From Candidatus Methylomirabilis sp. (GTDB lineage Bacteria; Methylomirabilota; Methylomirabilia; Methylomirabilales; JACPAU01): 40,047 nt of DNA. Location of the stretch: NCBI GenBank assembly GCA_036000645.1, contig DASYVA010000221.1:1-40047 (forward strand), given 5' to 3'. The notes below the pieces were generated by a model. The model was not told where the DNA came from. It did no database searches and saw nothing but the letters and a program-made list of their open reading frames with translations. Within the stretch, counting starts at the first letter, position 1. Each line of letters begins with the position of its first letter. Positions 1-5,488 of this stretch are shown piece after piece. The position numbers and the translations under genes were made by a program.

Positions 1-251
1 AACCCGGCGACAGGGTGACGGTCTCGTTCCTGGATTACGGGAAGCAGAAGAAGGCACGGTACGTCTACATCGCGCAAGCGGGGGCGGGGATGACAGCCAA
101 CCCGTGCGCCGCCAACCCGTGCGCGGCGAAGCCCGTGAACCCGTGCGCCCCGAAGGCGGTGAATCCGTGCGCGGCAAACCCCTGCGCTGCAAAGAATCCG
201 TGTGCGGCAAGGAACCCCTGCGCCGCCAACCCGTGCGCGCCCAAGAAGTGA
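1..251 (+). CDS. NPCA-repeat protein, C-terminal part (5' end outside window)
   Basis: The frame is open from base 3 to the TGA at 249-251, so the start very probably lies upstream; the GTG at 15 is only an internal candidate. The first part (PGDRVTVSFLDYGKQKKA) looks like beta-strand from a folded domain I cannot name. The last 50 or so residues are low complexity, with eight NPC units (NPCAA, NPCAAK, NPCAPK, NPCAAR). The same unit ends the cytochrome at 1327-1890 and fills the protein at 2841-3242, so these genes are probably related in function. Each unit gives one Cys without a CxxCH heme motif. Thiol redox or metal binding is possible but not shown. No function is assigned. Confidence 0.7.
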   Translation, partial: PGDRVTVSFLDYGKQKKARYVYIAQAGAGMTANPCAANPCAAKPVNPCAPKAVNPCAANPCAAKNPCAARNPCAANPCAPKK

Positions 252-261
252 CGTCCGGTTG

Positions 262-1296
262 ATGATGCAACTCCTGGGGATCCTGCTCACCGCCGGGGCC
301 GTCCTCTTCCCGGCCCCCGCACGCGCCCACCATCACCGGCTGCAGGCAGGGGGCTTCAACGGTCTGGTCGTGGCTCTGGCACCCGACCCCGTAGACCCCG
401 CCACCCTCTACGCAGGGGTCTTCGGCCAGGGAGTCTTCAAGACGACGGATGCCGGGGAAACCTGGAGCGGATCCTCGGCTGGCCTACACGACCTGGCCGT
501 CCGGGCCCTCCTGGTGGATCCGGCCGAGCCGCGCCGGGTGTTCGCCGGCACCGACAGCGGCCTGGCCGTGAGTACCGACGGCGGGCAGTGGTGGCGGCCT
601 GCGGGCCTCTCGGCCCGGGCGGTCCGAGTCCTGCTGGTGGAGCCGGGCGGCACCCTCCACGCCGGCACGGAGGACGGGGTATATGCCACCGATGACGCGG
701 GGCGGACCTGGCGCGAGGACAACCTCGGCCTGACGGCGAAAGACCTCCGGGCCCTCGTTCGGGATCCCCGCAGCGGCACCCTCTACGTCGGGGGCTTCGG
801 CGGACTCTTCCGACGGCTCCGCGGCGCGAGCGCATGGGAGTCCGCCGGGACTGGCCTCCCCAACCTGCACATCCGGGCGCTTGCGGTCGACCTTGCCGGG
901 ACGCTTTACGCCGGCACCGCGGGGACCGGGGTCTTCCGGAGCGAGGACGCCGCGCGGAGCTGGCGGGCGGCTTCAGATGGCCTTGCCCACCCGGTGGTGC
1001 TGGCCCTCCTGGCCGGGCCGCGGCCGGGCCAGATCCTGGCCGGGACGCTCGGGGGCCTCTTCAGGAGCGGTGACGGCGGAGGTCGGTGGCGCTACCTGGG
1101 GAACCGGGCGACCTTTCTCTCCTTCACGAGCATCGTGCGGGCCGCCGATGGCGCGGGGACTCTCTACGCTGCGAGCGGCGGCCTCATCCTGAAGAGCGTT
1201 GACGGCGGGGAGCGGTGGGCGGAGGCCGGCGGAACCAGTCCGCCGGCGCGAGGAGGCACCGGCGGTGGAGCCCTCGGGGCGACCACCTCCCCGTGA
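262..1296 (+). CDS. secreted BNR/YCF48-like beta-propeller protein
   Basis: About 344 residues. An N-terminal signal peptide (MMQLLGILLTAGAVLFPAP, then ARA before a His run) indicates export. The rest is a series of blades carrying Asp-box motifs: TTDAGETW, STDGGQWW, TDDAGRTW, SEDAARSW, SGDGGGRW, SVDGGERW. That pattern marks the sialidase/YCF48/VPS10-type propeller superfamily. In this superfamily it usually means a structural or binding scaffold, so no enzyme activity is inferred. A GTG at 202 would start the frame earlier, but the added residues are Arg/Pro-rich, precede the signal peptide and overlap the repeat gene. I therefore chose the ATG pair at 262/265. Neither has a convincing ribosome-binding site. 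It sits between an NPCA-repeat gene and cytochrome genes and may serve the same periplasmic assembly. Confidence 0.75.
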   Translation: MMQLLGILLTAGAVLFPAPARAHHHRLQAGGFNGLVVALAPDPVDPATLYAGVFGQGVFKTTDAGETWSGSSAGLHDLAVRALLVDPAEPRRVFAGTDSGLAVSTDGGQWWRPAGLSARAVRVLLVEPGGTLHAGTEDGVYATDDAGRTWREDNLGLTAKDLRALVRDPRSGTLYVGGFGGLFRRLRGASAWESAGTGLPNLHIRALAVDLAGTLYAGTAGTGVFRSEDAARSWRAASDGLAHPVVLALLAGPRPGQILAGTLGGLFRSGDGGGRWRYLGNRATFLSFTSIVRAADGAGTLYAASGGLILKSVDGGERWAEAGGTSPPARGGTGGGALGATTSP

Positions 1297-1326
1297 GTGA
1301 CACCCTCGGCAAACGGAGGTGAGACC

Positions 1327-1890
1327 ATGCGAGAAGGAGTCCGGTGGGTGGTGACGGCGGTGGGCGCGGCCGCCGTCCTGCTGGGCCAGCCCGAGAGTGG
1401 CATGGCCCAGCAGAAGAAGGAAATCCCGATGGGGCCGTACCACGAGACCCTGAAGCCGAACGACTCCATCGACGCCGCCATCGCCCGGGGGCGCAAGCTC
1501 TTCAACGACCTCGGCTGTGCCGGGTGTCATCCGCGGGGCGGCACCATCGGGGGGACCGCGCGGGACTTCGCGGGCAACCCGGTCCCGATCCCCATCCCTC
1601 CCCTCAAGGACTCGGCGCTGCACTTCCCGCGGGTGGCCGGGCCCGGGATCCTGGTCAACCTGGGCCAGATGAACGACCTCTGAAACACCATGTTCCTCGG
1701 CCGGGAGCCGATGGATCCCAACTCGCAGGAGTTCAACGACCTGCAAGCCTACGTGGCGTCCCTGACCCCGAACGTGTACGCCAAGATGAAGCAGTTCGAG
1801 AAGGAGCGGGCCGCGCTGATGAAGAAGATCAGCGGACCGGCGAACCCATGCGCCCCCAAGGCGGGAAATCCCTGCGCGCCCAAGCAGTGA
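1327..1890 (+). CDS. mono-heme cytochrome c with in-frame TGA at 1681 (possible selenoprotein)
   Basis: The ATG at 1327 follows GGAGGTGAGACC, a good ribosome-binding site. A signal peptide ends near GMAQ. The heme site is C64-A-G-C67-H68. TGA at 1681-1683 (codon 119) interrupts the frame, yet the same frame continues for 68 codons with normal cytochrome c sequence: NTMFLGREPMDPNSQ, then a helix ending LQAYVASL, then a tail with two NPCAPK units. Read through, the product is 187 residues, normal for a class I-like cytochrome. Met122 and Met129 are possible heme ligands. The TGA falls where SoxA/TsdA-type cytochromes carry Cys six residues before a GKPL-like motif (alignment from memory). Options are selenocysteine, a nonsense mutation or a sequencing error. 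If TGA terminates, the product is 118 residues (1327-1683) and lacks its C-terminal helix. Confidence 0.72.
1694..1715 (+). promoter_or_regulatory. SECIS-like hairpin just after the in-frame TGA
   Basis: TCC-TCGGC (1694-1701) pairs with GCCGA-GGA (1707-1711 and 1713-1715) around the loop CGGGA (1702-1706), leaving T1712 bulged. That is eight base pairs with one bulged U. Exactly 18 bases lie between the TGA and the apical loop, and a G is among the first two loop bases. Both fit the general bacterial SECIS pattern (loop roughly 16-37 bases after UGA). In E. coli fdhF the bulged U lies on the 5' arm; here it is on the 3' arm. In GC-rich DNA such hairpins also arise by chance, so this supports recoding without proving it. 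Confidence 0.35.
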
Positions 1891-1971: not shown

Positions 1972-2715
1972 ATGTCATGGTGGGGGGCTCTCACCGCGAC
2001 CGCCGTCTGGCTGTTCCTCCCGGGCCTCGCCGGGGCGGCCTCCCAGGCGGAGCAGCTCGGCAACCTGGCAGTCGGGGAGAGCGTGTACCGGGAGATCTGC
2101 TTCTCCTGCCACGGGATCGCCGGGGACGGGAAAGGCCCCAGCTACACAAACACCATGCCCCGCCCCCAGGTCTTCAGCAACCCGGACTACATGCGCCGCA
2201 TGACCGAACAGTACGTGTTCGAGGTAGTGAAGCACGGGAAGCTGGCGGTCCTGCGGCGCGAGGTCCCGAATTCCCCCCTGGAGGCGACGTCGATGCCCTC
2301 TTTCGAGGAGGCGCTGGAGGACGACCAGATTCGCCGCCTGATCACCTTCGAGCGGAGCTTCCGGACCGGCCAGCCCCAGGACCCGGAGATCCGGGAGATC
2401 TTCGACGCCGCCTGCGCCACGTGCCACGGCCCGGGGGGGCGGGGGAACGGGCCGACGGCCGTCGGACACGACGGCCCGCCGCCCCCGACCTTCGTCAGTG
2501 CCGTCCAGCCTCCGCCGGCCGACTACGCCAACCGCCTCCTCATGGAGCGATTCAGCGATGACTTCCTCTTCGCGCTCATCAAGAAGGGCCGGCTGGGGGC
2601 CACGGAGCAGATGGGCTTTAACACCATGAACCCCTACGGGCACATCATGAGCGACGAGGAGATCTGGAGCGTCATCCTCTACATCAGGAAGACCTTCATC
2701 GAGGGCACGCGGTAG
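1972..2715 (+). CDS. di-heme c-type cytochrome
   Basis: 247 residues from the ATG at 1972, which has GGAGGA eight bases upstream and a signal peptide immediately after it (MSWWGALTATAVWLFLPG, then LAGA). An upstream ATG at 1894 would add a Pro/Gly-rich leader, so I rejected it. Two cytochrome c domains follow: C43-F-S-C-H47 with a possible Met ligand in TSMPSFEEAL, and C148-A-T-C-H152 with Met candidates in MGFNTMNPYG. Each domain ends in a helix of the cytochrome c type (IRRLITFERSF; IWSVILYIRKTF). It should be a periplasmic electron carrier. It follows the mono-heme cytochrome by 81 bases and may pass electrons to or from it. Partner oxidoreductases are not in the window. Confidence 0.88.
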   Translation: MSWWGALTATAVWLFLPGLAGAASQAEQLGNLAVGESVYREICFSCHGIAGDGKGPSYTNTMPRPQVFSNPDYMRRMTEQYVFEVVKHGKLAVLRREVPNSPLEATSMPSFEEALEDDQIRRLITFERSFRTGQPQDPEIREIFDAACATCHGPGGRGNGPTAVGHDGPPPPTFVSAVQPPPADYANRLLMERFSDDFLFALIKKGRLGATEQMGFNTMNPYGHIMSDEEIWSVILYIRKTFIEGTR

Positions 2716-2840: not shown

Positions 2841-3242
2841 ATGAACTGTCGCAGGCTGCGGACTCTCTTCGTGCTGGCCGTGGCGCTGGCCCTGCCGGCG
2901 GCTGCGGGACAGGCGCAGGTCAACCCCTGCGCGGCCAAAACGATCAACCCGTGTGCGGCAAAGGCGATCAATCCGTGCGCGGCGAAGACCATCAACCCGT
3001 GTGCGGCCAAGACGCTGAACCCCTGTGCGGCGAAGACCTTGAACCCGTGCGCCGCGAAGACGCTGAATCCGTGTGCAGCCAAGACACTCAACCCCTGCGC
3101 CGCGAAGACGCTGAATCCGTGTGCGGCCAAGACGTTGAATCCCTGTGCGGCGAAGACCCTGAACCCGTGCCTGGCCAAGGACCTCTCAGCGGAGAAGGCC
3201 AAAACCCTGAGCGCCGAGGACGCCAAGAAGCCAAAATTCTAA
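2841..3242 (+). CDS. secreted Cys-rich octapeptide-repeat (NPCAAKTL) protein
   Basis: 133 residues. The ATG at 2841 follows GAAAGGAGGACATCGACC, an excellent ribosome-binding site. A signal peptide (LFVLAVALALPAAAGQAQ) comes first, then eleven uninterrupted octads NPCAAK(T/A)(I/L); the last is NPCLAKDL. The C-terminus is a Lys-rich stretch with SAEKAKTL and SAEDAKK. Every octad has exactly one Cys and one Lys. No folded domain is recognised. Its cytochrome neighbours and the same motif in two other nearby proteins suggest a periplasmic thiol-rich partner of the cytochromes, or a metal- or heme-handling scaffold. That is inference; no family function is known to me. Confidence 0.85.
   Translation: MNCRRLRTLFVLAVALALPAAAGQAQVNPCAAKTINPCAAKAINPCAAKTINPCAAKTLNPCAAKTLNPCAAKTLNPCAAKTLNPCAAKTLNPCAAKTLNPCAAKTLNPCLAKDLSAEKAKTLSAEDAKKPKF
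2922..3185 (+). repeat. eleven tandem 24-base coding repeats
   Basis: Eleven direct 24-base units each encode NPCxAKxx. The copies differ at the DNA level mostly at third codon positions (aac/aat, ccc/ccg, tgc/tgt, gcg/gcc/gca, ctg/ttg/ctc). The peptide is nearly constant through the first ten copies. The array therefore looks maintained by selection on the protein and is not a fresh slippage product. Confidence 0.9.
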
Positions 3243-3293: not shown

Positions 3294-3318
3294 GTTGTGT
3301 CCAGAGACGACGCAAACT

Positions 3319-4629
3319 ATGATCGAGTCCATGTCGAGTACAGGGCGGGATCCCTCAGGGCGCACCGCGCGCCGCCTGCGGGCCCGCTCGCCCTGCCTCC
3401 TCGCCGCGCTCCTCCTCGGTCTCGCGGCCGGAGGCGGCGGGAGCCAGGCCGCCTCCCCCGAGCCTCCCGGCGCCGAAGCGACCCAGGCCTTCCTGGACCG
3501 GCACTGGACGGTCCCCGTCCCCCTTCAGGGACCCCCTCCCCCCCGCTTCTCCCCCCTCGAGGCCTCCCTCGCGCCGGACGCCTGCGGCGCCTGCCACGCC
3601 TCCCAATACGCCGACTGGAAGACGAGCCTCCACAGCCAGAGCATGGGGCCGGGTGTTAGGGGGCAGACCCTGGGCATGGTCGAGGAAGACCCCGAGACGG
3701 CCCGCCAGTGCTACACCTGCCACGCCCCCCTCTCGGAGCAGCAGGAGCTCATCTCCGGGGTGGACCGCCTTGGCTTCGCCGGCCTCGTGGAGAACCCCCA
3801 GTTCGACCGGGCCCTGCAGGGGGAGGGCCTCACCTGCGCCGGCTGCCATGTGCGGGGTCACGAGCGCTTCGGGCCGCGGCGGCGGGACGGATCCATCCCC
3901 ACCACGATCCCGCGCGAGCAACTCCCCCACAACGGGGCGACCCGAACCCCCGCCTTTCAGAGGGCGGAGTTCTGCAAGGGGTGCCACCAGTTCGGCCCGG
4001 ACGGCTACGCCCTCAACGGGAAGTTTCTGGAGAATACCTACAACGAGTGGAAGGGGGGACCCTACGCCGCCCGGGGCATCCAGTGCCAGGACTGCCACAT
4101 GCCGGACCGCCGGCACGTGTGGCGGGGCATCCACGACCCGGAGGTGGTCCGGCAGGGGGTGAGCATCCGCCTCACGATCGGCAAGAGGCGCTACGCTCCG
4201 GGGGAAACCCTCACCGCGACCCTGACGGTGACCAACGCGGGGGTCGGGCACCTCTTCCCGACGTACGTGACGCCCAAGGTGATCGTGCGGGCCTCCATAG
4301 CGGACGGCAGCGGCAGGACAGTGGAGGGGACCATCCAGGAGGAGGCGATCGGACGCGAGGTCACGCTCGATCTCAGCCGGGAGCTGTACGATACCCGGAT
4401 CCCTCCCGGCAAGACGCACACCTTCGCGTACCGGCGGAAGGTCCCGCGGGCCGGCCTGCGCCTCCGGGCGAGCGTGGTGGTCTACCCCGACCACTTCTAC
4501 ACCCGCTTCTTCGAGGCGACGCTGGCCGGCGCCCCGGGCGCCGCCGGGGCGCCCCTCCTCCGGGAAGCGCTGGAGAAGACCCGCCGCTCCCCCTTCCCCA
4601 TCTTCGAAGAGGAGCGCCGCATCTCCTGA
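3319..4629 (+). CDS. penta-heme c-type cytochrome with C-terminal beta-sandwich domain
   Basis: 436 residues from the ATG at 3319; an alternative ATG at 3331 shortens it by four, and neither has a strong ribosome-binding site. After an Arg-rich n-region and a hydrophobic signal segment (LLAALLLGLAAG) come five CxxCH sites: C89-GACH, C131-YTCH, C173-AGCH, C219-KGCH and C256-QDCH. Their spacing resembles cytochrome c554/NrfB-like multiheme proteins. From about residue 275 a heme-free beta-rich domain follows (VSIRLTIGKRRYAPGETLTATLTV), Ig-like in character. It should be a periplasmic multiheme electron carrier or oxidoreductase; the substrate cannot be told. It lies just upstream of the FGE-domain gene, with 7 bases between, suggesting an operon. 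Confidence 0.82.
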   Translation: MIESMSSTGRDPSGRTARRLRARSPCLLAALLLGLAAGGGGSQAASPEPPGAEATQAFLDRHWTVPVPLQGPPPPRFSPLEASLAPDACGACHASQYADWKTSLHSQSMGPGVRGQTLGMVEEDPETARQCYTCHAPLSEQQELISGVDRLGFAGLVENPQFDRALQGEGLTCAGCHVRGHERFGPRRRDGSIPTTIPREQLPHNGATRTPAFQRAEFCKGCHQFGPDGYALNGKFLENTYNEWKGGPYAARGIQCQDCHMPDRRHVWRGIHDPEVVRQGVSIRLTIGKRRYAPGETLTATLTVTNAGVGHLFPTYVTPKVIVRASIADGSGRTVEGTIQEEAIGREVTLDLSRELYDTRIPPGKTHTFAYRRKVPRAGLRLRASVVVYPDHFYTRFFEATLAGAPGAAGAPLLREALEKTRRSPFPIFEEERRIS

Positions 4630-4636
4630 GGGGACC

Positions 4637-5488
4637 ATGGGCCGCGCTGGTTTGCTGGTTCTTGCGTTCCTCGTGGCTGCCTGGATCCCTCTCGCCCCTT
4701 CGTCCGCCCGGGCCCCTATGGTCCTCATCCCCGCCGGTCCCTTCATCATGGGGAGCGACGCGGCGGAGCGATCCTGGGCCTACGGCGCCAGCAGCCCCGT
4801 AGCCCGGCAGGCTCGCTGGTACGACGACGAGCCACGCCGGATCCTCTCCCTCCCCGCCTTCTGGATCGACCGATTCCTCGTGACCCACGCCGAATACCTC
4901 GCCTTTGTCCGGGCCACGGGCCACAGGGTGCCCGGGATCGGCAAGGAGGAATACGTGGCCCAGGGATTCCTGGTGCACGACTACGACCGGGAGGTCACGC
5001 GGTTCCTCTGGCAGGGCGGGGAGCCGCCGCCGGGGCTGGGGGAGCATCCAGTGGTCCTGGTCAGCGTGGAAGACGCCGAGGCCTACTGTCGGTGGCGGGC
5101 GACGCGGGAGGGACGGTTGCTCCGCCTCCCGACCGAAGAGGAGTGGGAGAAGGCCGCGCGGGGAGCGGATGGCCGATGGTTTCCCTGGGGGAAGACCTGG
5201 GACCCCCGCCGCCTCAACAACGCCGAGGCCGGTCCCCTCTTCACGACCCCGGTGACGGCCTATCCTCTTGGGCGCAGCCCTTACGGGATGTTCGATGCGG
5301 CCGGGAACGTCTTCGAGTGGACGGCCTCGCGCTACCCGGATGGCCGGCGGGTCATGAAGGGGGCAGGATCCTGGGACGACGAAGCCGGGATCTGCCGGCC
5401 AGCATCCCGTCACGGGCGCCCGCCCAGTTCCCGGCACATCCTGTTTGGGTTTCGCTGCGCCGGTCCCGCGGTTGAGCCGGGGTCCTAG
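4637..5488 (+). CDS. exported FGE-sulfatase (SUMF1/EgtB/NirV-type) domain protein
   Basis: 283 residues. An N-terminal signal segment (GLLVLAFLVAAWIPLAP, SSARA) is followed by a complete FGE-sulfatase domain: VLIPAGPFIMGS, DDEPRRILSLPAFWIDRF, VTHAEYLAF, HPVVLVSVEDAEAYCRW, LPTEEEWEKAARG, FPWGKTWD, FDAAGNVFEW, GAGSW and GFRCAG. True formylglycine-generating enzymes use a Cys pair shortly after the GGS(Y/W) motif. Here, after G244-S-W246, only C253 is seen, so copper-dependent formylglycine formation is doubtful. Beside cytochromes, NirV-like or structural roles are more plausible. GAGGGGACC precedes the ATG. The stop shares its CTAG with the convergent gene's stop. Confidence 0.8.
   Translation: MGRAGLLVLAFLVAAWIPLAPSSARAPMVLIPAGPFIMGSDAAERSWAYGASSPVARQARWYDDEPRRILSLPAFWIDRFLVTHAEYLAFVRATGHRVPGIGKEEYVAQGFLVHDYDREVTRFLWQGGEPPPGLGEHPVVLVSVEDAEAYCRWRATREGRLLRLPTEEEWEKAARGADGRWFPWGKTWDPRRLNNAEAGPLFTTPVTAYPLGRSPYGMFDAAGNVFEWTASRYPDGRRVMKGAGSWDDEAGICRPASRHGRPPSSRHILFGFRCAGPAVEPGS

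Follow-up and report, generated by a model that had tools for sequence, protein, structure and literature searches.

Selenocysteine (Sec) has been listed in c-type cytochromes before. A 2026 review, whose table includes families attributed to Haft and Tolstoy 2025, covers 119 prokaryotic selenoprotein families; its cytochromes are ExtKL, which is multiheme, and a family of octaheme proteins (PMC13188914). In ExtKL (NF040886; GSU2937-2936 of Geobacter), which is a c-type cytochrome with five hemes, Sec is predicted from an in-frame TGA, and the possible Sec lies in a C-terminal part of the protein without similarity to characterised proteins (PMC1914089). The octaheme cytochrome of the tetrathionate reductase family (TIGR04315) is also c-type and is annotated as containing one Sec (PMC13188914).

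Heme ligation by Cys, and the chemistry that goes with it, is best compared with the SoxA/TsdA cytochromes (PF21342; 4v2k, 4wq7), which are exported c-type heme domains with a CXXCH motif followed by a Cys. The ligand of the catalytic heme of TsdA is Cys123 (precursor numbering), which is the site of an S-thiosulfonate intermediate, and Arg119, located four residues before the ligand, is invariant in TsdA and SoxA (PMC4423706). A selenolate as the axial ligand of a heme has so far been a product of engineering, in P450s carrying a Cys-to-Sec change (PMC11273360), and a full-text search of the open-access literature yielded no natural Sec-ligated heme.

The window (the whole 40,047-nucleotide stretch of DNA that was analysed) contains a gene that, when read through a single in-frame TGA at codon 119, encodes what its sequence indicates is apparently an exported or periplasmic monoheme cytochrome c. 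The coordinates of this gene, its internal features and its neighbours are collected in Table 1. The product has one CXXCH motif and matches the Pfam cytochrome c family PF00034 at 23.4 bits (cut-off 21.3), and it was classed on these grounds as a monoheme c-type cytochrome. The PF00034 match extends over residues 52-146 and crosses the TGA, in agreement with the first-pass annotation, which had described the frame as open except for one TGA and as cytochrome c on both sides of it. The AQQ position of the probable signal peptide is common to all four homologues that we identified (see below). The same annotation had taken an NPCA tail after the TGA to be typical of the locus; such a tail is present in the window copy, but as a general feature it does not stand, because the three relatives lack it.

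Table 1. Features of the Sec cytochrome gene and of the genes around it (window coordinates).
Feature	Position	Strand	Remarks
Exported BNR/sortilin-like beta-propeller protein	202..1296	+	Neighbour on the 5' side; likely to start near 262
Ribosome-binding site GGAGGTGA	1315..1322	+	Read from the sequence; 4 bases 5' of the ATG
Sec-containing monoheme c-type cytochrome gene	1327..1890	+	187 residues, Sec119, terminal TGA
Probable signal peptide, residues 1-27	1327..1407	+	Inferred from charged N-terminus, hydrophobic core and AQ cleavage site
Heme c attachment motif CAGCH (C64, C67, H68)	1516..1530	+	Invariant in 4/4 homologues
Sec codon TGA (codon 119)	1681..1683	+	TGA invariant in 4 genomes; full Sec machinery
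SECIS-like hairpin	1694..1715	+	Loop CGGGA at the apex (1702-1706); U bulge in the 3' arm
NPCAPKAGNPCAPKQ tail	1843..1887	+	Window copy only
Diheme c-type cytochrome, partner gene	1972..2715	+	PF13442, PF00034; ORF start at 1894 also possible
NPCA-repeat protein, neighbour	2841..3242	+	NPCA proteins also in the G082 and G083 loci
Multiheme c554-type cytochrome, neighbour	3295..4629	+	PF13435; without internal TGA
FGE-sulfatase/formylglycine-generating-type protein, neighbour	4637..5488	+	Kept in G082 and G083

Relatives of the Sec cytochrome, with 62-64% identity to it, were found in three other genomes (G018, G082 and G083), which come from two further families of the phylum. Every relative has one TGA within the cytochrome, aligned with codon 119, and the residues on either side are kept nearly perfectly in the four genomes: NDLU or NDMU, followed by NT-V/M-FLGREP-M/L-DPNSQ (overall NDxU-NTxFLGREPxDPNSQ). 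The region 3' of the TGA is under purifying selection (pairwise pN/pS of 0.22-0.68, with well-diverged synonymous sites), which is somewhat weaker than the selection before the TGA in some pairs of genomes. Therefore, given the same TGA column in three other genomes and the selection downstream of it, the in-frame TGA is not there by chance. The gene itself is terminated by TAG in the three relatives and by TGA in the window copy.

The profile search that gave these relatives covered 95 genomes of one phylum, and a wider genome collection was scanned with a single sequence. No version of the Sec cytochrome with Cys or another sense codon was found in the profile search of the 95 genomes, in which the remaining matches were weak and mostly confined to the CXXCH region. 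The single match in the wider collection (L027, Schekmanbacteria) was rejected as spurious, and no relative was found in viral contigs and plasmids.

The genome from which the window is taken (2.67 Mb in 239 contigs, 97% complete) was found to contain selA (575 bits), selB (399 bits), a tRNA-Sec with a TCA anticodon (76.7 bits) and selD (353 bits), so that all of the sel genes sought are present. The selD gene carries an in-frame TGA of its own (CAGU-ASK...) and thus provides an internal positive control for recoding in the same genome. In the phylum, selB was detected in 84 of the 95 genomes. One of the three other Sec cytochrome genomes, G018, has a TGA-bearing selD, and the search for selA and selB in this bin, which is 70% complete, gave no match.

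On the strength of this machinery and of the TGA at codon 119 in homologues from other families, the proposal of the first-pass annotation that the TGA might specify Sec can be put more firmly: UGA codon 119 is almost certainly decoded as selenocysteine. An ordinary stop, yielding a truncated or decaying cytochrome or a product that ends at Leu118, is suggested by the fact that TGA is the usual terminator here (17 of the 29 called CDSs in the window), but it is very improbable in view of the frame, C-terminal helix, flanking residues and TGA that are kept in four genomes and of the selection acting on the part 3' of the TGA; moreover, a product ending at residue 118 would be without the C-terminal helix of the cytochrome fold. 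The same use of TGA as a terminator, which had been claimed for the window at the outset and was borne out, shows that the genetic code is not reassigned. An open frame taken by itself would be compatible with the insertion of Trp or a different standard amino acid at the TGA, or with SelB-independent readthrough, and we regard this as just as improbable as termination, since TGA ends most other genes here, the genome encodes the complete Sec pathway, with a selD that itself contains a TGA, and codon 119 aligns with a Cys of distant relatives. An error of sequencing or assembly at position 1681 is conceivable in a single draft metagenome-type assembly of 239 contigs, but its probability is negligible, because the same codon occurs in three separate assemblies from other genera. 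Pseudogene formation, sequencing error and stop-codon reassignment were accordingly rejected on the basis of the four-genome conservation and the Sec machinery. Apart from the cytochrome gene, none of the 29 CDSs judged plausible in the window has an internal stop, and a scan of the window gave no other good case of coding-like sequence flanking a TGA.

A hairpin downstream of the TGA had also been put forward in support of recoding. It was found that a hairpin whose 5-base loop begins 18 nt 3' of the TGA is predicted with the same geometry in all four genomes, with the bulged U that had been described, and that the G018 version has one compensatory pair (C-G to U-A). The folding energies are unremarkable (z of -0.4 to -1.7), and 25% of the ordinary codons in the window also satisfy the loose hairpin rule. 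Therefore, although the hairpin is compatible with a SECIS element, it is uninformative as a test for one, and we do not count it as evidence. No gathering-level Rfam match was found near the gene, and scans for promoters and terminators found nothing.

The position of Sec119 was compared with that of the heme-ligating Cys of the SoxA/TsdA cytochromes. The C-terminal helix of the cytochrome domain begins shortly after Sec119. In most of the SoxA/TsdA-like Cys cytochromes seen in the phylum, the ligand Cys is separated by 13 residues from the Ser of a DS, ES or NS helix start (Cys-x13-Ser), and the anchor Ser is substituted in a few cytochromes of this type. The spacing in the Sec cytochrome, U-x13-S, is identical. 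In an hhalign comparison with a Cys-type profile (9 rows, two of which are the same protein), which gave a probability of 94.5 and an E-value of 7.5e-8, Sec119 was paired with the ligand Cys; in the solved chain of TsdA (4v2k), the Cys aligned to Sec119 corresponds to residue 96. A MAFFT alignment of 16 sequences had as its invariant columns only CXXCH, one Pro and the Cys/Sec position. When the Sec column was masked as a control, the downstream anchor was retained, and hhalign preferred a 3-residue gap that placed DLxN against DMIN and moved the ligand Cys off the Sec. Therefore, the anchor is independent of residue identity, and the exact Sec/Cys register is not fully independent of it. The earlier suggestion that Sec occupies the place of the SoxA/TsdA ligand Cys is thus supported by the spacing and the profile alignment but not proven, given the shift of the masked register and the absence of an active-site Arg.

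That Arg, at the ligand-minus-4 position, is replaced by Met or Leu in all four Sec cytochromes, and the position of TsdA Ser127 (ligand plus 4, a feature of TsdA and not of SoxA) is occupied by Phe in all four. The window copy scores 14.1 bits against PF21342, below the cut-off of 27. Because it lacks the ligand-minus-4 Arg, which does not vary in SoxA and TsdA, the Sec cytochrome was not classed as a thiosulfate dehydrogenase, and for the same reason and because of the PF21342 score it was not assigned to SoxA or TsdA. The resemblance to SoxA/TsdA therefore consists of an exported c-type heme domain with CXXCH and then Sec in place of Cys, the 13-residue interval between this Cys or Sec and the Ser of a DS/NS-x-E helix start, and profile similarity; unlike SoxA/TsdA, the Sec protein lacks the Arg and the TsdA Ser, has a single heme, and is encoded beside a diheme cytochrome and a propeller protein instead of SoxYZ or a second TsdA domain.

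It appears somewhat more probable than otherwise, judging from these alignments, that Sec119 is the sixth or active-site ligand of the single heme. A less probable but serious alternative is that Sec is inserted at codon 119 and acts as a nearby redox, metal-binding or regulatory residue, with the heme ligated by His/Met or His/His through M154 or H99. Both H99 and M154 are invariant in the four Sec cytochromes and are thus other possible heme ligands, Sec and the ligand Cys can be offset by 3 residues in the masked alignment, the active-site Arg and Ser of SoxA/TsdA are not conserved, and the possible Sec of ExtKL is itself in a C-terminal part that resembles no characterised protein (PMC1914089). 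The spacing from Sec to the DS/NS anchor argues against a non-ligand role, as the ligand Cys of several SoxA/TsdA-type subfamilies stands at precisely this distance from the anchor. M129, which occupies the place of the classical Met, is replaced by Leu in G018; this also speaks against the alternative, since His/Met ligation through the usual loop is then not conserved. AlphaFold models made with 4 and 16 sequences (pLDDT 43.6 and 52.8) were too poor to decide the ligation; a Foldseek search with the better model (pLDDT 52.8) gave no fold match, and a sequence search of the Protein Data Bank gave weak matches in the CXXCH region and nothing useful for the Sec half of the protein.

The genes around the Sec cytochrome gene are also conserved. 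The genes for the beta-propeller protein, the Sec cytochrome and the diheme cytochrome follow one another in this order in all four genomes, and the propeller proteins 5' of the Sec cytochrome in G018, G082 and G083 are of the same type as that in the window. Orthologues of the diheme partner with 59-61% identity are located directly 3' of the Sec cytochrome gene in these three genomes, and the distribution of the partner is exactly the four Sec cytochrome genomes plus one relative with 41% identity in G061. This last gene (L131, 5233-7433) adjoins a cytochrome c peroxidase-like gene and a cupredoxin, and G061 has no Sec cytochrome. A Crp-type regulator gene is found 5' of the propeller gene in G082 and a few genes upstream of it in G018.

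In G082 and G083, the gene following the diheme cytochrome encodes a ResA/TlpA-like redoxin with the sequence FWATW-U-PHC, which contains a second in-frame TGA (at 7769 of L028 in G082 and 11518 of L030 in G083). This redoxin is probably a second selenoprotein of the Sec cytochrome operon. TlpA-like frames with one TGA are many across the phylum, including two in the genome of the window (C208:5476 and C155:1018). The redoxin gene is followed in G082 and G083 by genes for NPCA-repeat proteins and by a gene of the FGE-sulfatase type.

Taken together, these results are best explained, with good confidence, by a periplasmic monoheme cytochrome c in which Sec119 would be inserted at the UGA codon by the SelA, SelB, SelC and SelD of the organism itself, probably at the SoxA/TsdA ligand position. 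The selenolate would then be the sixth ligand, or a labile active-site ligand, opposite the CXXCH histidine, and electrons would pass to or from the single heme by way of the diheme cytochrome that is encoded next. More speculatively, the protein could catalyse a reaction of a sulfur or selenium compound, analogous to the Cys-S-thiosulfonate chemistry of TsdA; thiosulfate is less likely to be the substrate because the binding Arg is missing. Two of the operons also encode the UPHC redoxin, which may serve to hold either the Sec or the substrate of the Sec in the reduced state. We give an even chance to the fuller proposal that this is a natural cytochrome c with a His/selenolate-ligated heme, possibly an enzyme that oxidises or reduces sulfur or selenium by way of a selenyl-substrate adduct.

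With respect to the cytochromes already listed with Sec, the protein found here shares with ExtKL its c-type nature and the prediction of Sec from an in-frame TGA, and with the octaheme family its c-type nature and annotated Sec. In contrast to the multiheme ExtKL, it has a single heme, and it gave no match to the NCBIfam model NF040886; likewise, it did not match the TIGR04315 family, which is octaheme. The multiheme c554-type cytochrome encoded nearby gave 46.5 bits against NF040886 (cut-off 250), a distant likeness. If Sec119 ligates the heme, a selenolate axial ligand would be held in common with the engineered Sec-P450s, which differ in being man-made Cys-to-Sec variants with P450 hemes and not natural c-type cytochromes.

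The expectation that selenium in a cytochrome c would be novel thus has to be narrowed, as ExtKL and the octaheme family are already listed; what is unlisted is the class with one heme and Sec inside the heme domain, which is absent from the 119 families of the review (PMC13188914) and for which NCBIfam, as of June 2026, has no model covering the protein. Our best reading of the sequences is that the Sec cytochrome represents a new selenoprotein family. It would add a family with Sec within the heme domain in a phylum where most genomes have selB, and it exposes a blind spot in selenoprotein finding, since no close Cys form was found in the 95 genomes searched; one published finder, deep-Sep, by its own account, may miss selenoproteins without Cys homologues (PMC12013277). 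If the ligand assignment is true, this would be, to our knowledge, the first natural Sec-ligated heme. It would reveal the advantage that selenium brings to a Cys-ligated heme enzyme, and the role of a reactive ligand in SoxA/TsdA chemistry could be tested through comparison.

The phylum also has a set of Cys-containing monoheme SoxA-like cytochromes, which are small and have the same arrangement of CXXCH, ligand Cys and DS. The set consists of L100 (from the same genome as the window, C48:20460), the INWC-type L101, L103-L108 and L110, and L102, L111 and L113, which have an NPCA tail in common with the Sec protein of the window. These proteins differ from the Sec cytochrome in having Cys instead of Sec, in their low identity to it (16-24%) and in their gene neighbourhoods; the gene for L100 is about 5 kb from a SoxY-like gene. 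INWC and a C-terminus of the DPGRH type characterise L100, L101, L103-L108 and L110, which form a family of small SoxA-like cytochromes that is widespread in the phylum and that also lacks the ligand-minus-4 Arg.

Repeats of NPCA(A/P)K were seen as whole proteins or as N- or C-terminal extensions of cytochromes, in the window at 3-251, 1843-1887 and 2841-3242 and elsewhere in L102, L111 and L113. A cytochrome P460 gene (PF16694) with an NPCA-like stretch is located near the Sec cytochrome operon of G082 (L028:8938-9573). Frames with an in-frame TGA that probably represent known selenoprotein types were also observed near these loci, namely an AhpD/peroxidase-related frame with NACTYU at about 14020 of L030 (G083) and a UGSC-type frame at about 2544 of L029 (G018).
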